Shown here piece by piece: positions 1 through 9,185 of a stretch of 9,185 nucleotides of DNA (the first letter of the stretch is position 1; every line of letters starts with the position of its first letter). Location of the stretch: contig CAOJHG010000052.1 in NCBI GenBank assembly GCA_948435975.1, positions 1 to 9,185 on the forward strand. The letters are read 5' to 3'. The stretch comes from an uncultured Oscillibacter sp. Its GTDB lineage: Bacteria; Bacillota; Clostridia; Oscillospirales; Oscillospiraceae. The position numbers and the translations under genes were made by a program. The notes under the pieces are model-generated. The model made no database searches, was not told the DNA's origin, and saw only the letters and a list, made by a program, of their open reading frames with translations.

Positions 1-8
1 CGTTCGTG

Positions 9-32
9 CTCTCAACTGAGAGAGTGTTTTTT
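9..32 (+). terminator. Possible rho-independent terminator of an upstream gene
   Basis: A short stem (CTCTC at 9-13 pairing with GAGAG at 18-22 around the loop AACT) is followed after four bases by six T residues (27-32). The stem is only five to six base pairs, so it is a weak hairpin. It would end a + strand gene lying left of the window. Confidence 0.4.
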
Positions 33-326
33 ACATACCTTGTGACCCTCTTATTTTAACAACTTTCCAGCTAAAGTCAAGAGGTTTTCTCCATATTTTG
101 CTTTAGAATCTTGATGAGGCGGGAAGCGTCTCCGCAAAACTCAACGGCAGGCTCCTAAAACCGGTTTTCCCATCTGCGCTCCTGCAATTTTTTATCAATA
201 GCCAAATATCTCGGAAAAAGATGCGAACCGGTAAATTTACCCATTCTTCAGGAATCCTTTTTCTGTAATTGGCAGATTCCGAAAACACCTTATACGTCAA
301 AGTTTTCATGGGAGTTTTATTTGCTC
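33..326. other. Gene-free AT-rich region upstream of the atp operon
   Basis: About 290 bases with no supportable gene. The minus strand has a 76-codon open frame (333 to 103) and an overlapping short frame ending near base 75, but neither has a recognisable start context or family resemblance, and the first would begin inside the -35 box of the atp promoter. No tRNA-like fold or riboswitch was recognised. The lower GC than the flanking genes suggests spacer DNA or a decayed gene. Confidence 0.5.
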
Positions 327-354
327 TTGACACCGGGGAAACAGGTGCTATAAT
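327..354 (+). promoter_or_regulatory. Consensus sigma-A promoter of the atp operon
   Basis: A perfect -35 hexamer TTGACA (327-332) and a perfect -10 hexamer TATAAT (349-354) are separated by 16 bases. Transcription would start near 361, giving a leader of about 80 bases before the first atp start codon. The spacer carries CACC and GGTG as a short inverted pair (332-335 and 344-347), too short to call an operator. Such a close match suggests strong, largely constitutive expression of the ATP synthase. Confidence 0.85.
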
Positions 355-396
355 CTAAAAATGCCAGTATCTCTCTGCATTAGTGGGATATGGTGT

Positions 397-414
397 GAGG
401 CTGATTTGTGCCTC
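397..414 (+). other. Small hairpin in the atp leader
   Basis: GAGGC (397-401) can pair with GCCTC (410-414) around an eight-base loop in the untranslated leader. It ends about 14 bases before the AAAGGAG ribosome site at 429-435. It has no T-run, so it is not an attenuator of the usual kind. It may only be chance structure. Confidence 0.25.
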
Positions 415-441
415 GAAATCGTTTACGTAAAGGAGTGCGTG

Positions 442-1251
442 ATGAAAGAACATAAAAAAGGTCTGGCATTGTGGATCATCATCGTCTTACTGCTGCTGGC
501 CGGCGCACTGCTGGCTGGGTCCCCCGGACGGACGGAAAGTGTTCAGGAGGCTATGCGGGATGCGGTGCTCCACGATGTCAATCAAGTGAACCTCTTTGGC
601 CTGAAGGCGGTAAACCCCGGCATGATCTCCGCCTTCGTGGTGACAGGAATCCTGCTTTTGGCCGCCGCCGCAATTCGTATTTTCGCCATTCCCCGCTTCC
701 AGTATATGCCGGGAAAATTTCAATTGATTCTGGAAGAGGCAGTGGGCGTCTTTGACCGTATGGCCCATACCAACAGCCCCCACCGCTGCGGCTTTCTGAG
801 AGCTTACCTTTTTGCCGCGGGCGCATTCGTGTTCACGGGGACTCTGTTTGAGCTTTTGGGTCTCCAGGCGGTGACGGTCCACGGCCACCCGGTCACCCTG
901 CCCGCGCCGCTGTCCGACGTCAACGCCGCCATTGCTCTGGGTACGCTCTCCTATCTGGTGATCCTCTCTGGAGGCATTGCCGGGAACGGCCCCAAGGGAA
1001 TCTTGAAGACCCTGAAAGAGTTCTCCTTACCGATTTCCATGAGCTTCCGGCTTTTTGGCGCACTGCTCAGCGGCCTGCTGGTGACAGAGCTGGTATATTA
1101 CTTTGTCAACCTGAGCTTTGTGCTTCCGGTGGTGGTGGGGGTGCTGTTTACCCTCCTTCATGCCCTGATTCAAACCTATGTCCTCACTATGCTGACGGCG
1201 CTCTACTATGGGGAGGTTTCCGAGGTCTCTCACAAGCCGGAGAAATCCTGA
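442..1251 (+). CDS. atpB: F1Fo-ATP synthase subunit a
   Basis: Subunit a (269 aa) is the Fo stator membrane protein that provides the two ion half-channels beside the c-ring. An N-terminal hydrophobic segment (residues about 8-27) is followed by about five more membrane segments. The fourth-helix motif PLSDVN (156-161), the essential arginine R203 in SFRLFG, and Q244 (matching E. coli Q252) in the last helix are present. Two positions are odd: A207 stands where Asn normally follows (RLFGN), and L212 where His or Glu is usual. The frame is open back to an ATG at 361, but that lies at the predicted transcription start without a ribosome site. ATG 442 has AAAGGAG seven bases upstream and is preferred. 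It is the first gene of the operon, with no atpI-like gene before it. Confidence 0.95.
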   Translation: MKEHKKGLALWIIIVLLLLAGALLAGSPGRTESVQEAMRDAVLHDVNQVNLFGLKAVNPGMISAFVVTGILLLAAAAIRIFAIPRFQYMPGKFQLILEEAVGVFDRMAHTNSPHRCGFLRAYLFAAGAFVFTGTLFELLGLQAVTVHGHPVTLPAPLSDVNAAIALGTLSYLVILSGGIAGNGPKGILKTLKEFSLPISMSFRLFGALLSGLLVTELVYYFVNLSFVLPVVVGVLFTLLHALIQTYVLTMLTALYYGEVSEVSHKPEKS

Positions 1252-1255
1252 ACTA

Positions 1256-1272
1256 ATGGAATGGGATTCCAT
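1256..1272 (+). other. Perfect hairpin in the atpB-atpE gap
   Basis: ATGGAAT (1256-1262) and ATTCCAT (1266-1272) are exact inverted copies separated by GGG. The element lies between the stop of atpB and the ribosome site of atpE (GGAGG, 1285-1289) and is followed by an A-rich stretch. Without a T-run it is not a terminator. It could affect mRNA stability or atpE translation, which must be high because c is needed in many copies. The role is inference. Confidence 0.5.
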
Positions 1273-1274
1273 AA

Positions 1275-1658
<384 letters not shown>

Positions 1659-1672
1659 GGCGGGTGGCGTTT

Positions 1673-2173
1673 GTGAATATTCCATTGAATATTGATTGGC
1701 AGCAGATTTTACTGCATTGGATGAATCTCGCCATCCTGACCGGCGGACTGTACTTCCTTCTGTTCAAGCCGGTGAAGCAGTTCATGGCGAAGCGGGAGGC
1801 CTATTATAAAGACCTGGATAACCAGGTGGCGGAAAAGCTGGCGGAGGCGGAAAAAATCAAGGCTGAATATCAGGCCAAGATGGACGCCGCCGCCGAGGAA
1901 ATCCACCAGGCCCGCGCCAAGGCTCAGCAGGTGGTGCAGCAGTCCGCCGAGGAACAGCTTGCCCAAGCGAAAATCCAGGCGCAGCAGATTGTGTCCCAGG
2001 CTCAGGCGGAGGCCTTGAACAGCCGGGAACGGATTCGAAGGGAGTCCCAAAGAGAGCTGAAAGAGCTGGCGGCAGCGGCGGCGAAGAAGCTGGCGTTCCG
2101 GGCGGAGGCGGACCCCTTTGACCAGTTCCTGAATCTGGCGGAGGGAGGAGACCAGCCCAATGAGAAGCGCTAG
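1673..2173 (+). CDS. atpF: F1Fo-ATP synthase subunit b
   Basis: Subunit b (166 aa from GTG 1673) forms the peripheral stalk linking Fo to F1. One N-terminal membrane segment (residues about 11-31, ending in FKPVKQF) leads into a long, highly charged, Ala/Gln/Glu-rich helix to about residue 145, typical of the b coiled coil. An earlier GTG at 1664 would add three residues, but it lies immediately after the GGCGG purine stretch; GTG 1673 has GGCGGG eight bases upstream and gives the MNIPLNIDW start I would expect for this family, so it is preferred. The last 14 bases overlap the fused delta-alpha gene. Length is normal and the C-terminus shows no delta-like domain, so this is not the b-delta fusion known from mycobacteria. 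Confidence 0.93.
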   Translation: MNIPLNIDWQQILLHWMNLAILTGGLYFLLFKPVKQFMAKREAYYKDLDNQVAEKLAEAEKIKAEYQAKMDAAAEEIHQARAKAQQVVQQSAEEQLAQAKIQAQQIVSQAQAEALNSRERIRRESQRELKELAAAAAKKLAFRAEADPFDQFLNLAEGGDQPNEKR

Positions 2174-3914
2174 AGGCCGTCTGTCGGCAGAGCTGCGCTG
2201 TGCCAAGGAGCCTACGAAGGAACAGCTCCAGCGTTTTGTGGAGTTTCTGGAAAAGCGGTACCAGCGCAAGGTTCCGCTGGAGTGGAAGAAAGACGAGGGC
2301 ATCTCTTCGGGCTTCCGGCTCCAGGTGGGGTCCGATGTGTATGATTGGACGCTGGCAGGCCGGGCGCGGCAGTTTCAGGACCGTCTGAGACAGCTCCATA
2401 CCAGCGGCGCGGATATCCTGCCCCTGATGCGTCAGGCGGTGGATGAGTGGGCCCCTGCTGTTGTCCCAGAGGAAATCGGAGAGGTGCGGACGGTGGATAG
2501 TGAGATCGCTACCGTCACCGGCCTGCCCCACACCCAGTACGGTGAGATTCTGCTCTTCTCCTCCGGCATCAAGGGTATGGTGCAGGACCTGCGGCGGGAC
2601 GCCCTGAGCTGCATCCTGTTCGGCAGCAGTGAGGACATTTCCGCAGGGAGCATGGTCCGCCGGACGCTGCGGACCGCTGGGATGCCCGTGGGAAACACTT
2701 ACCTGGGCCGGGTAGTGGATGCCCTGGGGGTCCCCATTGACGGCAAGGGACCCATTGAACCGGAGACGTATCGCCCCATTGAGGCTCCGGCCCCCGGTAT
2801 CCTGGACCGCCAGCCGGTAAACACGCCTATGGAGACCGGCCTGCTGGCAATCGACTCCATGTTCCCCATTGGCCGGGGACAGCGGGAATTGATTATCGGC
2901 GACCGTCAGACCGGGAAGACGGCCGTGGCTTTGGATACCATCCTGAACCAAAAGGGAAAGAATGTCGTCTGCATCTATGTAGCCATCGGACAGAAGAGCA
3001 GCTCCGTGGCGCAGTTGGTAGAGAATCTGAGCCGCCGGGGAGCCATGGACTACACCACCGTAGTCAGCGCACCGGCAGGAGCCTCCGCCGCTCTGCAATA
3101 TATCGCTCCTTACGCGGGCTGTGCCTTGGGCGAGCATTTTATGTATCAGGGGCGGGATGTGCTGATTGTGTATGACGACCTGAGCAAGCACGCCATCGCT
3201 TACCGGACCCTGAGTCTGCTGCTGGAGCGTTCCCCTGGACGGGAGGCGTTCCCAGGAGACGTGTTTTACCTGCACTCCCGGCTTCTGGAGCGGTCTGCCC
3301 ATCTTTGTGACGAGCTGGGCGGCGGCAGCATGACGGCTCTGCCCATCGTAGAGACCCAGGCGGGAGATGTGTCCGCATACATTCCCACCAATATCATTTC
3401 CATTACTGACGGCCAGATTTTCCTGGAAAGCGACCTGTTCTTCGCTGGACAGCGGCCTGCCGTTAATGTGGGCCTGTCTGTGTCCCGTGTGGGCGGCGAC
3501 GCGCAGACGAAGGCCATGAAGTCCGCCGCGGGCGCGATTCGGCTGGATTTGGCCCAGTACCGGGAAATGGAGGTATTTACCCAATTTTCCAGCGACCTGG
3601 ATGAAGCGACCAAACGCCAGCTTCGCTATGGACAGGGGTTGATGCGTTTGCTGCGCCAGCCTCAGTATGCCCCGCTTTCCCAGCATCAGCAGGTGATTCT
3701 GCTGGTCTCTTCCCTGGGTCATGTAATGCAGGATATCCCCTTGAATCAACTGGAAACTTTCCGGAAAGAGCTTCTGAGCTATATCGAGGAGGAGGCCCCG
3801 GATTTTTGCAGCCGGGTGGACCTGACTGGCCAGCTTTCGGCGGAGGACCGGGAGGAGATCCTGCTCCTGGCCCGGCGCTTCCTGGAGGCGTTCCAGGCCA
3901 GGAAGGAGGCATGA
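2160..3914 (+). CDS. atpA: Fusion of delta C-terminal domain with F1-ATP synthase subunit alpha
   Basis: This 584-aa protein is about 80 residues longer than a normal Firmicute alpha. Residues about 16-79 resemble the C-terminal domain of delta/OSCP: a helix with EQLQRFVEFLEKRY (21-34), then KVPLEW, then SGFRLQVGSDVYDWTLAGR (50-68), matching the usual GG-x-x-x-x-x-G-D-x-V-x-D-G-S pattern. From about residue 85 the protein is alpha: crown beta-barrel (about 105-175), P-loop GDRQTGKT with K253, IVYDDLSK, signature PAVNVGLSVS, arginine finger R443 in SRVGG, and a helical C-domain. Catalytic-interface residues are intact. A strong GAGGGAGGAG (2141-2150) sits nine bases before ATG 2160, so the extension is translated. 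Met90 lies near where a free alpha would begin but has no evident ribosome site. No separate atpH and no delta N-domain are encoded here. The gene is co-transcribed with atpF (14-base overlap) and atpG. Confidence 0.95.
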   Translation: MRSARGRLSAELRCAKEPTKEQLQRFVEFLEKRYQRKVPLEWKKDEGISSGFRLQVGSDVYDWTLAGRARQFQDRLRQLHTSGADILPLMRQAVDEWAPAVVPEEIGEVRTVDSEIATVTGLPHTQYGEILLFSSGIKGMVQDLRRDALSCILFGSSEDISAGSMVRRTLRTAGMPVGNTYLGRVVDALGVPIDGKGPIEPETYRPIEAPAPGILDRQPVNTPMETGLLAIDSMFPIGRGQRELIIGDRQTGKTAVALDTILNQKGKNVVCIYVAIGQKSSSVAQLVENLSRRGAMDYTTVVSAPAGASAALQYIAPYAGCALGEHFMYQGRDVLIVYDDLSKHAIAYRTLSLLLERSPGREAFPGDVFYLHSRLLERSAHLCDELGGGSMTALPIVETQAGDVSAYIPTNIISITDGQIFLESDLFFAGQRPAVNVGLSVSRVGGDAQTKAMKSAAGAIRLDLAQYREMEVFTQFSSDLDEATKRQLRYGQGLMRLLRQPQYAPLSQHQQVILLVSSLGHVMQDIPLNQLETFRKELLSYIEEEAPDFCSRVDLTGQLSAEDREEILLLARRFLEAFQARKEA

Positions 3915-3915
3915 C

Positions 3916-6220
<2,305 letters not shown>

Positions 6221-6221
<1 letters not shown>

Positions 6222-6634
6222 TGGAGGCCTTTCAGGTACACATCCTGGCGGCGGACCGGACCTTTTACGATGGTCCCTGCGTCAGCCTTACGGTTCCTAC
6301 CAGCGACGGCGAACAGGGGATTCTGGCCCATCACAGCAGTATGATTGCGGCTGTCGTGCCGGGAACCCTGCGCTATCAGATTCCCGGTGAAGCGGCTGCT
6401 GTAGCTGCGGTGTCCATGGGGATGGTGAAGGTGGAGAACAACGAGGTATTGGTCCTGGTGGATTCTGCTGAGCGGCCGGAGGAGATCGACGAAGCCCGCG
6501 CCCGCCGGGAGGCCGATGAGGCGAAGGAGGCCCTTTTGCAGAAGAAGAGCCGTCAAGAGCACCAGATGGCCCAGGCAACGCTTGCACGGGCATTGAACCG
6601 CCTGCGGGTGAAGTCTCAGGGCGGGCTTATGTAA
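6221..6634 (+). CDS. atpC: F1-ATP synthase subunit epsilon
   Basis: Epsilon (137 aa) joins the gamma shaft to the c-ring and can inhibit ATP hydrolysis through its C-terminal helices. An N-terminal beta-sandwich (about 1-83, with GILAHH at 33-38 and VPGTL at 46-50) is followed by a charged two-helix domain (85-132). That domain carries IDEARA (89-94), matching the I/L-D-x-x-R-A ATP-binding motif of thermophilic Bacillus epsilon, with E84 before it and R123 and R127 in the second helix at matching spacing. ATG 6221 overlaps the beta stop by one base (TGATG); the preceding TTG codon is in frame but not preferred. It is the last gene of the operon, directly followed by a terminator. Confidence 0.95.
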
Positions 6635-6638
6635 TCAA

Positions 6639-6687
6639 AAACGGCGCTCCCGTGTCCAAAGAGGAATGGGGAGCGCCGTTTCTGTTT
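6639..6687 (+). terminator. Rho-independent terminator of the atp operon
   Basis: A perfect 13-bp stem (6639-6651 with 6669-6681, core ACGGCGCTCCC / GGGAGCGCCGT) has a 17-base loop and ends in a T-rich tract, TTTCTGTTT. It begins four bases after the atpC stop. The A-tract on the left arm means it could also act weakly on the opposite strand. Confidence 0.88.
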
Positions 6688-6698
6688 GGCCTGCAAGC

Positions 6699-6741
6699 AA
6701 AAACGCCTTCGATCTTCCGGATAGACCGGGGACCGAAGGCG
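6699..6741 (-). terminator. Rho-independent terminator of the NlpC/P60 gene
   Basis: Read on the minus strand, CGCCTTCG pairs with CGAAGGCG (+ strand 6704-6711 with 6734-6741), with an inner CCGG/CCGG pairing in the loop, and is followed by five T residues (A5 at 6699-6703 on +). It lies 21 bases beyond the stop of the minus-strand gene and next to the atp terminator, so the convergent units are insulated. Confidence 0.8.
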
Positions 6742-6762
6742 AATATGTGTTCTGACCACTGC

Positions 6763-7662
6763 TCAGAGAATGCGGCGGGCGCCTACATACTTCCGCAGGT
6801 TGGCGGCAGTGAGCATACTGCGGTACTCGACGACGCCGGTATCACTGGCGGCATGGATGTACTGGTTATTGCCTACATAAATGCCCACATGGGAGGCGGC
6901 ATGGGAGTCTCCGTCGTTGCGGAAGAACACCAGATCGCCGGGCTGAAGCTGCTCCTTGGGCACCGAGACGCCGTTGCTGAGCTGGGTGCTGGCGGTGCGG
7001 TTGATCTTATAGCCAAAGTGCCGGTATACGTAGCTGGTGAAGCCGGAGCAGTCGAAACTGTTGGGTCCATTGCCGCCGTAAGCATAGGGAGTACCCAGGT
7101 AGGAGGCGGCATAGGCGAGGAGCTGCTGGGCGGCGGCGGACGCTTCCTCTGAGAAGACAGGAATGCTCACGTCATCGCAGGGAACGATGTAATCACTGAG
7201 CACATAGCCCACAGAGCCGTTGTAATCCACCTTGAACCAGCCGTTTTCAATACCGGTGAGCTTGACCGCCGCGCCGTTGCGGACGGAGGTGACGCGGTCA
7301 TAATCGGTGCCGGGACCAGAGCGGATGTTCAAGCTGCTTCCGCTGGTTTTCACAAGTCCGCTGCCCAGGTCCTCGTCAGCCTCATAGACCACGTCCAGAT
7401 ACTCGGCGGACATGTAGCCTTCTTTTCCCAGGAAGACAACGGAATACCATCCGGACTGCTCTTCGCCCACGACAATGGCGTGAGAGCCGTTGGAAGCGGT
7501 GGTGAGGACAGAGGCTTCGGTACTGGGTTCTGCCCGCAGCCGGAGGCCGTCGGCGTTGATGGTAGCCACGCCCACCTCAGCGGCGGAAGCCTGTCCCACA
7601 CATAAAACAGCAGCAAAAGCGGCGAATATGTACAGGATTCCTTTTGATTTCAAACAATTCAT
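6763..7662 (-). CDS. Secreted SH3-domain NlpC/P60 peptidoglycan endopeptidase
   Basis: This 299-aa protein should be exported and cleave stem peptides of peptidoglycan. A signal peptide (1-27, cleavage after A25-S26-A27) is followed by two bacterial SH3 repeats (about 30-91 and 101-160), each with an N-G/S-x-L-x-(I/L)-R-type start (DGLRLRAEP, SSLNIRSGP) and a closing GY pattern. These usually bind the wall. The C-terminal NlpC/P60 domain (about 175-299) has TPYAYGG, catalytic C205 in DCSGF, GDLVFF, H258 in HVGIYVG and polar third residue H270, so the catalytic triad is complete. The ATG at 7660-7662 is preceded on its strand by GGAAAGGA. It stands alone between its own promoter and terminator. 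The exact bond cut (commonly D-iGlu-meso-DAP/Lys) cannot be read from sequence. Confidence 0.94.
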   Translation of the reverse strand: MNCLKSKGILYIFAAFAAVLCVGQASAAEVGVATINADGLRLRAEPSTEASVLTTASNGSHAIVVGEEQSGWYSVVFLGKEGYMSAEYLDVVYEADEDLGSGLVKTSGSSLNIRSGPGTDYDRVTSVRNGAAVKLTGIENGWFKVDYNGSVGYVLSDYIVPCDDVSIPVFSEEASAAAQQLLAYAASYLGTPYAYGGNGPNSFDCSGFTSYVYRHFGYKINRTASTQLSNGVSVPKEQLQPGDLVFFRNDGDSHAASHVGIYVGNNQYIHAASDTGVVEYRSMLTAANLRKYVGARRIL

Positions 7663-7711
7663 CGCTGTAGTTCCTTTCCAGACATTTCTTGAAGTAACGG
7701 TTTGTATCTGG

Positions 7712-7729
7712 ATTGTAACATATTGTAAC
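7712..7729. repeat. Tandem ATTGTAAC direct repeat, 10-bp period
   Basis: ATTGTAAC occurs at 7712-7719 and again at 7722-7729, separated by AT. A further GTAAC lies at 7694-7698, 21 bases (about two helical turns) from the first copy. TGTAAC fits the half-site TGTWAH known for WalR-type regulators, but here the gap is four bases rather than the canonical five. This looks like a tandem operator; the binder is unknown. Confidence 0.5.
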
Positions 7730-7741
7730 TATTTCTGTCAA
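7712..7741 (-). promoter_or_regulatory. Promoter of the NlpC/P60 gene with phased repeats
   Basis: On the minus strand a perfect -35 TTGACA (+ coordinates 7736-7741) and -10 TACAAT (7712-7717) are 18 bases apart, about 50 bases upstream of the start codon. The -10 and spacer contain GTTACAAT twice, ten bases apart (7712-7719 and 7722-7729). An activator or repressor binding tandem sites would touch the polymerase directly. Confidence 0.7.
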
Positions 7742-7775
7742 GGGCCGTAGAGAAATTCCTGGTGAAAATTCAGGG

Positions 7776-7791
7776 ATTACCAAATATTACC
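7776..7791. repeat. ATTACC direct repeat, 10-bp period
   Basis: ATTACC occurs at 7776-7781 and 7786-7791 with four bases between. It lies in the divergent gap, about 35 bases upstream of the -35 box of the minus-strand endopeptidase gene. The TTAC core is shared, in the opposite orientation, with the repeats in the promoter itself. It could be an upstream activator site or chance. Confidence 0.3.
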
Positions 7792-7852
7792 TGGAACGGG
7801 ACGGAAGAAACGGGAAATACCGCCGGGCTTGGGCTGGTTCGACAGATTGCCC

Positions 7853-7881
7853 TTGCTTTTGTCCTGTGAGGGATGTATTGT
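7853..7881 (+). promoter_or_regulatory. Possible weak promoter of the kinase-like gene
   Basis: TTGCTT (7853-7858) and TATTGT (7876-7881) are 17 bases apart and about 45 bases before the start codon at 7928. Each hexamer differs from consensus at two positions, so this is a tentative call. No better candidate was seen in the 7742-7927 gap. Confidence 0.25.
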
Positions 7882-7927
7882 GTGGTTTTATGGTAGGATA
7901 TCAACCGCGAGGAAAGGAATGTTACAT

Positions 7928-8497
7928 ATGATTTTCACCATCGAAGGGGAATATGGCAGCGGGGCCGAAGCTCTTGGGCGGGGGCTGGCAGAGGCAATGG
8001 CGCTTCCCTGCTATGACCAGGCCGCTTTGGAACAGGCTGTTCAGGAGGCTGAGCCAGTGTATGGCGTTCGAGTCTATCGGGCAGGGGGTGGGGCTGCTGT
8101 GGCCTATGGGGAGCCTTCTGCCGCACGGGTGGCAGCGGCGCAGCGGGAGACGCTGGAAGCCCTTGCCCGGGCTGCGAGGAACTGTGTGTTTTTGGGGGAC
8201 TCCGTGGGGGCGATCCTGGAACCGCTGAAGCCAGTCCGTCTGTTCGTTTATGGGGACCGGAAGAGCAAGCTGGAGCGCTGCCGGGGTCTGGGGGACGGGG
8301 AGGACCGGACGGCGGCGGAGCTGGAATGCCGGATGCGCCAGGCTGACCGGGGCCGGGCCAAACAATACGAGCTGTTCTCTGAGCTGCACTGGGGAACGAA
8401 AGAGGCTTATCACCTGTGCGTCAACACCTCTGGCCGGGAATTGGAGGCGCTGGTTCCGCCCTTGGCCGCATATTGCCGGCTGTTTTTAGAAAAGTAA
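7928..8497 (+). CDS. Diverged cytidylate kinase-like protein
   Basis: A 189-aa protein resembling the cytidylate kinase-like family (small P-loop proteins common in Clostridia). The N-terminus MIFTIEGEYGSGAEALG fits the family's M-I-I-T-I-x-R-x-F/Y-G-S-G-G-R-x-I-G, with GSG at 10-12. Later, MRQADRGRAKQYELF (136-150), HWGTKEAYHLCVNTS (154-168) match the family's D-x-x-R-x-x-Y-Y and W-G-x-x-x-x-Y-D-L-x-x-N-S blocks. Key positions have drifted: EGEYGSGA replaces R-Q-x-G-S-G-G, GDSVGAIL (90-97) stands where G-R-x-A-x-x-I-L is usual, and the middle is shortened. It may have lost or changed activity. ATG 7928 has AAAGGA (7913-7918) nine bases upstream; the in-frame ATG 7919 overlaps that site and an upstream extension to 7829 lacks one. 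No clear terminator follows. Confidence 0.75.
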   Translation: MIFTIEGEYGSGAEALGRGLAEAMALPCYDQAALEQAVQEAEPVYGVRVYRAGGGAAVAYGEPSAARVAAAQRETLEALARAARNCVFLGDSVGAILEPLKPVRLFVYGDRKSKLERCRGLGDGEDRTAAELECRMRQADRGRAKQYELFSELHWGTKEAYHLCVNTSGRELEALVPPLAAYCRLFLEK

Positions 8498-8534
8498 AAT
8501 TGTTAAATATTTCTCTAAGATTTCCATTTTCTAC

Positions 8535-8563
8535 TTGTCATGGTGCTGACAAAATGATATACT
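8535..8563 (+). promoter_or_regulatory. Promoter of mtlD with overlapping inverted repeat
   Basis: TTGTCA (8535-8540) and TATACT (8558-8563) are 17 bases apart, each with a single mismatch to consensus, so transcription should start near 8570 with a leader of about 105 bases. The -35 is also the left arm of an inverted repeat, TTGTCA-N6-TGACAA (8535-8552), a likely repressor site covering the -35 region and spacer. Confidence 0.75.
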
Positions 8564-8581
8564 GGTTCCAGCGTTGTTTTG

Positions 8582-8593
8582 TGTAAATTTACA
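8582..8593. promoter_or_regulatory. 12-bp palindrome just downstream of the mtlD transcription start
   Basis: TGTAAATTTACA is a perfect palindrome at about +12 to +24 of the predicted mtlD transcript, where a bound repressor would block elongation. It looks like the two outer halves of a catabolite-response element (TGTAAA and TTTACA) without the central CG pair. Operator function is inference. Confidence 0.45.
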
Positions 8594-8675
8594 GCTTTCT
8601 TCAGAAAAACAGGAAGGGGGAAAGGAGCCTCTGGAAAGCGGTAAATCTGCAAACGGAGTGAAAAGGAGGAGAAAC

Positions 8676-9185
8676 ATGAAAGAAGCGATAATGTTTGGGG
8701 CTGGCGGTATTGGCCGGGGATTTATCGGTGCGCTGCTGGAGAAGAGCGGCTGGCATGTGACCTTTGCCGACGTGGTAGAGCCGATCATCAATGAAATCAA
8801 CAGCCGCAAGCACTACACCGTTCATATTCTGGACCAGGTGTGCGAGGACTGGGAAATCTCCAATGTCAGCGCCGTACTTTCCACCGGTGAGGAGATCGTC
8901 CAATGTATCGCCGGCTGCGACCTGATTACTACAGCGGTAGGCCCCCTGGTGGCTCCCATCATTGCAAAGCCTATCGCTGCTGGCATCCGGGCCCGTATGG
9001 CTGCGGGAAACAAGTCTCCTATGAACGTGGTTTGCTGCGAGAACGGCTTGAGGACCACCACCCGGCTCAAGGGCTTCGTTTTTGAGAATCTCAGTGAGGA
9101 AGAGCAGGCCTTCGCTGATTCCAATGTAGGCTTTGCGGACTGCGCCGTAGACCGGATCTGCCCCAAGTCCTCGTTTGAGAATCCC
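8676..9185 (+). CDS. mtlD: Mannitol-1-phosphate 5-dehydrogenase, N-terminal part
   Basis: The first 170 codons of a gene cut by the window edge (family length about 380 aa). MtlD oxidises mannitol 1-phosphate to fructose 6-phosphate with NAD+ after uptake by a mannitol phosphotransferase system, or runs in reverse. The N-terminus has the nucleotide-binding signature FGAGGIGRGFIG (7-18) and the acidic end of the second strand, FADV (30-33). Further family blocks are LITTAVGP (87-94), NVVCCENGLR (117-126), and VGFADCAVDR (151-160). These match MtlD more closely than the related uronate reductases. AAAGGAGG (8662-8669) ends six bases before ATG 8676. It appears to start its own transcription unit. 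The catalytic lysine region and any adjoining transport genes lie beyond the window. Confidence 0.92.
   Translation, partial: MKEAIMFGAGGIGRGFIGALLEKSGWHVTFADVVEPIINEINSRKHYTVHILDQVCEDWEISNVSAVLSTGEEIVQCIAGCDLITTAVGPLVAPIIAKPIAAGIRARMAAGNKSPMNVVCCENGLRTTTRLKGFVFENLSEEEQAFADSNVGFADCAVDRICPKSSFENP

Follow-up and report, generated by a model that had tools for sequence, protein, structure and literature searches.

Fusion of the delta C-terminal domain to ATP synthase subunit alpha in an uncultured Oscillibacter and its relatives: a candidate natural multi-stalk F-type ATP synthase

Introduction

Ueno et al. (2025, PMC12229609) state that known ATP synthases have just one a subunit, and reason that the one delta subunit, whose N-domain occupies the three-fold axis of F1, restricts the enzyme to one peripheral stalk. 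In the FoF1 of Bacillus PS3, these authors deleted the delta N-domain and fused the delta C-domain (deltaC) to alpha, and by cryo-EM the resulting enzyme (deposited as PDB 9JC1) carries one to three b2 stalks with an equal number of a subunits, up to three stalks being accommodated in an unstrained structure (PMC12229609). The mean number of stalks was about two in biochemical measurements and 1.26 in cryo-EM; the H+/ATP ratio stood at 5.8 rather than 3.0, and ATP-driven pumping was reduced (PMC12229609). The Discussion of the same paper notes a natural delta-alpha fusion in Acidaminococcus fermentans, with the delta N-domain missing, as well as further natural entries (UniProt G4Q3K6 and A0A1I2C5T3), and predicts multi-stalk enzymes in nature from A. 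fermentans and the two entries (PMC12229609). Other rearrangements of delta are described as well: a fusion of b and delta in mycobacteria is the subject of a Rosetta-stone note (PMC5709465), and in N-ATPases delta is reported as absent or fused to b (PMC11738941, PMC5709465).

The present work concerns a stretch of 9,185 nucleotides (the window) from an uncultured Oscillibacter sp. of the Oscillospiraceae, corresponding to positions 1-9,185 (forward strand) of contig CAOJHG010000052.1 in assembly GCA_948435975.1. An earlier note on this DNA proposed that its ATP synthase alpha gene begins with the C-terminal domain of delta, and held such a fusion to be undescribed; this last claim falls, given that the fusion was engineered by Ueno et al. 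(2025) and noted by them in A. fermentans (PMC12229609). Here we map the fused gene, follow its architecture among relatives and weigh what it may mean for the number of stalks.

Results

The ATP synthase operon and its fused gene

A single F-type ATP synthase operon is present in the window, with the gene order a-c-b-[deltaC-alpha]-gamma-beta-epsilon and the following features:

442..1251, + strand: atpB, a subunit (PF00119; start at 361 in the ORF list)
1299..1658, + strand: atpE, c subunit with a 46-aa signal-peptide-like N-extension (PF00137)
1664..2173, + strand: atpF, b subunit, 169 aa (PF00430; 14-base overlap with the fused gene)
2140..2150, + strand: purine-rich, ribosome-binding-site-like GGAGGGAGGAG, ending 9 bases 5' of the fused ATG
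2160..3914, + strand: fused deltaC-alpha gene, 584 aa (P0001; open ORF; Pfam, NCBIfam, 9JC1 alignment)
2163..2387, + strand: delta/OSCP C-terminal domain, residues 2-76, predicted b-docking unit (Pfam OSCP 97-172; predicted fold)
2388..2468, + strand: linker and alpha N-terminal helix, residues 77-103 (helix 86-96 in the model; 9JC1 linker aligned)
2469..3872, + strand: alpha body, residues 104-571 (PF02874, PF00006, PF00306; TIGR00962)
3916..4812, + strand: atpG, gamma (PF00231)
4809..6221, + strand: atpD, beta (own profile match)
6218..6634, + strand: atpC, epsilon (own profile match)

The fused gene occupies the atpH position of the operon, and the deltaC-alpha fusion put forward in the earlier note is confirmed. 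In the Pfam search of the whole protein, positions 97-172 of the 172-position OSCP profile align with residues 2-76 (E=1e-9), and residues 1-84 taken alone give an OSCP match over the curated cut-off (E=2.8e-11). A complete alpha follows, with the beta-barrel (residues 104-169), the nucleotide-binding domain (227-442) and the C-terminal domain (449-571) all over their Pfam cut-offs, and residues 84-569 score 705.7 bits against the atpA family (NCBIfam TIGR00962; cut-off 484.45). Among PDB sequences, residues 15-76 match positions 114-175 of the ATP synthase delta chain 5t4o_L, which we take to be that of E. coli (E=3.7e-4). In the predicted model, residues 10-77 form a beta-alpha-beta-beta-beta-alpha domain (pLDDT 85-90 in the block of residues 11-70), followed by a helix (86-96) and by the alpha barrel, with low pLDDT in parts of the alpha core. 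A fold comparison returned alpha chains throughout and is uninformative for deltaC.

The six-helix N-terminal domain of delta is lacking in the 584-aa ORF, whose single OSCP match begins at profile position 97 and which contains no stretch matching positions 1-96 (Pfam). The stop-to-stop frame of the fused gene is 593 aa, with just 9 codons open 5' of the ATG, and, given these 9 codons and the 14-base overlap with atpF, the N-domain has no place at this locus, as the note had argued; the ribosome site that it placed before the fused start is there as described. The fusion is not of the mycobacterial b-delta type, b being a separate gene in the window. Residues 15-564 are collinear with residues 11-564 of 9JC1, linker included (E=2.5e-171), and the window protein has the make-up of a deltaN-less delta-alpha FoF1, that is, deltaC on the alpha N-terminus and no delta N-domain. 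Against the N-ATPase alpha model (alt_F1F0) the window alpha reaches 617.1 bits, under the cut-off of 750.5, and neither the type nor the gene order is that of an N-ATPase.

The extension of the window c subunit spans positions 1299-1436. Further along this subunit (1500-1660), a Met stands, at a position counted by eye, where sodium-binding c subunits have Gln, which makes protons the likelier ion for the window enzyme.

Search for a separate delta

No second OSCP match over the cut-off occurs in the window's own genome (2.26 Mb in 376 contigs, 61% complete), where two matches lie below it (E=0.13 and E=0.24). Across the genus, 26 of 61 genomes (own included) have an OSCP match over the cut-off and 35 have none. 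By row count, 19 of these 26 are C-domain-only (frames of 588-677 aa), two carry a complete delta in the reading frame of alpha (one of 680 aa; the other, of 496 aa, has a truncated alpha) and five have a separate delta (176-204 aa). A second match over the cut-off is found in none of the 19 C-domain-only genomes (three have one below it), which include eight congeners of 91-97% completeness (one with a second match below the cut-off). The earlier note had named two outcomes that would speak against it, a lack of delta similarity at the start of the protein and a complete atpH elsewhere in the genome. Neither is seen: the delta match is significant, and a separate atpH was set aside as unlikely, with nothing over the cut-off in these near-complete congeners or in the own genome, incomplete as the latter is.

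Spread of the fusion

At E<=1e-3, 649 of 943 candidate proteins match residues 1-120, and OSCP and alpha domains are present in all 120 listed of these 649, so the fusion is not a product of chance; where the source names the matching proteins, they are plain subunit alpha. In the family scan, 171 of 300 genomes had OSCP matches over the cut-off, in frames of very varied length. With a profile of deltaC plus the alpha start, delta and alpha share one open frame in at least 69 of the 394 genomes scanned in the order (the window's own among them), with more such frames in the class and phylum. Among the named relatives with the fusion are Lawsonibacter, Oscillibacter and Flintibacter muris DSM 110149. 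That the fusion recurs across the order and the phylum is new.

Architectures among relatives

We fetched 180 stretches, chosen towards fusions, and, together with the genus and named-relative loci and the window, 198 were annotated by our own profiles. Duplicates (L001 and L009-L014), L002, L003 and L207 (a weak match) were omitted before counting; three loci cut at contig ends (L033, L097, L098) were set aside, and L066 was counted apart. As the loci were hand-picked and fusion-enriched, the following class counts are not prevalences:

Class I, separate full delta: 34 loci
Class II, full delta-alpha fusion with the N-domain kept: 17 loci
Class III, deltaC-alpha: 100 loci (three of them duplicates: L197/L075, L198/L016, L202/L017) and 2 unclear
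Class IV, free b and a b-deltaC-alpha triple fusion: 26 loci and 1 cut
Class V, b-deltaC with a separate alpha: 8 loci
Class VI, stand-alone deltaC: 6 loci (L092-L096, and L099 at a contig start)
Class VII, deltaC-deltaC-alpha: 1 locus

In class IV, the fused b part contains a hydrophobic, membrane-helix-like 19-mer at all 26 loci (mean hydropathy 1.60-2.56), each of which also has a free b, and the chain predicted for one of them (L054) has helices at residues 2-20 and 23-133, then deltaC and alpha. A protein search with this chain returned at least 2008 proteins at E<=1e-3 among 7998 scored candidates, and all 120 listed have b, OSCP and alpha; since these are 99-100% identical to the query, the search gives depth and not breadth, which rests on the 26 loci. 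F1 contains three alphas, and class IV would therefore have three fused b chains, more than one b2 stalk uses, so that the class IV enzyme could not be single-stalk unless the b-deltaC-alpha chain is cut.

Several loci have arrangements of their own. The class VII locus (L045) has two tandem deltaC domains ahead of one alpha in a 681-aa frame, and the stand-alone deltaC of L092-L096 lies in frames of 76-86 aa at the atpH position. A one-contig genome (G157) holds two stand-alone-deltaC operons, with alpha in two frames in one of them (L095), and three genomes each contain two F-type operons of different delta architecture (L120/L121 in G696, L156/L194 in G827, L180/L181 in G1373). At L191, four c domains occupy one 350-aa frame, with two more c genes adjoining.

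Gamma, a rotor subunit, and beta, a stator subunit, lie in one stop-free open frame at all eight class V loci (L084-L091) and at three class III loci (L146, L168, L169). AGGAGG precedes an in-frame beta start at each of the eight (7 ATG, 1 TTG), so that class V likely makes free beta and one gamma-beta chain per enzyme; 51 of 106 database matches are 754-773 aa long with both domains. An engineered F1 with the gamma C-terminus cross-linked to the stator is reported to rotate still (PMC3536650). In the accessible parts of the open-access PMC literature, no mention was found of b-deltaC-alpha, stand-alone deltaC or gamma-beta fusions.

At loci with exactly one c gene, the c-subunit N-extension is present in 74/98 of class III, 1/2 of the unclear class III and 1/1 of class VII, and in 0/33, 0/16, 0/26, 0/8 and 0/5 of classes I, II, IV, V and VI (0/88 in all); the tree has only two gains of this extension, too few to tie it to the fusion. 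The ratio of N- to C-domain identity in delta has a median of 0.80 for the full fusions (135 pairs) versus 0.94 (348 pairs), pairs that are not independent, which is suggestive only of a faster drift of the N-domain in full delta-alpha fusions.

Phylogeny

We built a tree of alpha, beta and gamma with 95 of 183 loci. It requires at least 12 changes in whether the delta N-domain is present and at least 10 in whether delta is fused to alpha (12 and 9 without L099), counts that carry no direction. A single clade of all 40 deltaC-alpha rows is rejected (p-AU 1.6e-8), as is one of the 31 rows of classes III and VII within the clade holding the full fusions (p-AU 2e-45), the groups for both tests having been named after the tree was seen. 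The number of N-domain changes and the one-clade rejection indicate that the deltaC-alpha state arose repeatedly. In the large clade of the window, full fusions (L036; L126 and L130; L038) adjoin deltaC-alpha groups with support of 98, 100 and 86-96, which fits an order in which the genes fuse first and the cap is lost later. Elsewhere on the tree, the stand-alone deltaC loci suggest that fusion is not required for losing the cap.

Discussion

The fusion itself is already known, and its novelty is reduced by the work of Ueno et al. (2025, PMC12229609). What is new, besides its recurrence, is the repeated change of the N-domain, the position of deltaC-alpha groups beside full delta-alpha fusions and the b-deltaC-alpha triple fusion among the relatives. 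The earlier note had seen covalent linkage as replacing the cap, without the point that the docking domain is present once per alpha and hence three times per F1. The linkage stands, and this account of it is incomplete, three alphas making three docking domains and removal of the N-domain in the engineered enzyme having led to more stalks and more a subunits (PMC12229609); the idea is best put as cap loss permitting several stalks.

In the mechanism that we propose, loss of the delta N-domain would lift the one-stalk limit of the F1 axis, and the three alphas would bring three deltaC docking domains to each F1. Judging from the engineered enzyme and from the b-deltaC-alpha relatives, these domains would be filled by two or three b2 stalks, accompanied by as many a subunits. 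More ions would then pass per turn, giving a higher ion-to-ATP ratio and allowing ATP synthesis at a low gradient, or, in reverse, the pumping of more ions per ATP. We consider it reasonably probable that the window enzyme is a natural multi-stalk ATP synthase, with up to three stalks and likely making ATP from a weaker gradient, because deltaC alone is fused in frame to alpha, collinearly with the engineered 9JC1, and because in the class IV relatives b, deltaC and alpha are one chain, three of which cannot share one b2 stalk. To our knowledge, no structure or stoichiometry is known for a natural deltaC-alpha enzyme. For the group as a whole, we lean, a little more cautiously, towards F-type ATP synthases that naturally bear three stalks and as many ion channels having evolved many times in gut Firmicutes, by delta-alpha fusion and cap loss (in one lineage as b-deltaC-alpha, with the three stalks built in), the window carrying one of them.

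Some observations weigh against the multi-stalk reading: the stalk averages and the reduced ATP-driven pumping of the engineered enzyme (PMC12229609), and the 35 of 61 genus genomes with no OSCP match over the cut-off. It may also be that more domains do not mean more stalks. The 17 loci with a full delta-alpha fusion retain the N-domain, and the axis should have place for just one copy of it; surplus domains may thus be tolerated and should be idle; the six loci with stand-alone deltaC and no fusion likewise point to cap loss alone being tolerated. A single-stalk enzyme, in which b2 occupies one of the three deltaC domains, the fusion tethers the stalk and the cap is dispensable, would agree with both observations. 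We judge it unlikely, if worth keeping in mind, since the engineered PS3 counterpart accepts up to three stalks with no structural strain (PMC12229609) and the b-deltaC-alpha relatives supply more b chains than one b2 stalk needs.

Rather less probable is a mixture of alphas, in which internal initiation or proteolysis would yield alpha without deltaC and leave about one docking domain per F1. We found no start codon with a Shine-Dalgarno-like site at the window junction or at the old alpha start, the in-frame ATG at residue 90 having no such site; as the same scan recovers just 16 of 45 true starts of separate alpha genes and so overlooks most of them, its negative outcome in the window counts for little. 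At the junction the scan is positive in 30/100 class III, 0/17 class II (full fusions), 1/26 class IV (triple fusions) and 0/1 class VII (tandem) loci, compared with 8 of 100, 3, 3 and 0 for a control stretch. The excess in class III would favour a mixture, as would the ATG with AGGAGG at the old alpha start of Flintibacter muris (L201; L119 has a TTG and L196 a GTG there) and the dual-product genes that seem to exist, from the AGGAGG before the in-frame beta start, in class V. Against it, most of the 30 positives are GTG codons inside the barrel, and the full, triple and tandem fusions are almost all negative. An internal start giving free alpha was rejected for the window, on a scan that is insensitive and positive in some relatives, and each window alpha is probably made with its docking domain.

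An assembly artefact or decayed operon, to which a 61%-complete draft in 376 contigs might lend itself, has a negligible probability and is refuted by recurrence, the same domains being found in all 120 listed of the 649 matching proteins, in named records (Flintibacter muris DSM 110149 among them) and in 19 of 61 genus genomes (own included), with every alpha domain present over its cut-off.

Rnf is present in 73 of the 79 genomes examined (by our own grouping, 32/34 in class III, 11/12 in II, 15/16 in IV, 3/3 in VI and 12/14 in I) and was not found in the window's own genome, which is 61% complete. It is a likely ion source and fits chemiosmosis, not a class-specific role. A link between fusion and Rnf was also considered and rejected: none is seen, Rnf occurring across the classes, also in 12 of the 14 genomes picked for their separate delta.

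If the multi-stalk reading is true, stalk number and ions per ATP would be a gear that evolution can change across a large set of gut bacteria, shifted through gene fusion rather than through c-ring size, and the repeated change of the N-domain would mean that the stator cap is dispensable in living cells. The b-deltaC-alpha relatives would leave room for several stalks per F1 or a cut chain, and nothing else. The wider set of architectures, above all b-deltaC-alpha, would thus turn natural multi-stalk ATP synthases into a concrete prediction.

Comparison with known systems

The closest counterpart is the engineered PS3 enzyme (9JC1), which shares with the window the loss of the delta N-domain and the joining of the delta C-terminus to the alpha N-terminus by a short linker, with 550 residues collinear; it differs in that it also lacks the epsilon C-domain, whereas the window enzyme is natural and has the signal-peptide-like extension on c. 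Like the window, the FoF1 of A. fermentans has a natural delta-alpha fusion with, according to the authors, the delta N-domain missing; it belongs to another genus and is noted there in a few sentences (PMC12229609). The mycobacterial b-delta protein resembles the window in linking delta with a different stator subunit (residues 3-73 match the C-terminal portion of delta in 7jg5_d), and differs from it in the fusion partner, which is b. In that protein the delta N-domain is retained, in a single copy per enzyme. N-ATPases differ from the window in having beta-epsilon first in the gene order. In A/V-type ATPases, two or three peripheral stalks surround one catalytic hexamer; they are like the enzyme predicted for the window in having several stalks, and unlike it in their other stalk proteins and single membrane stator subunit.
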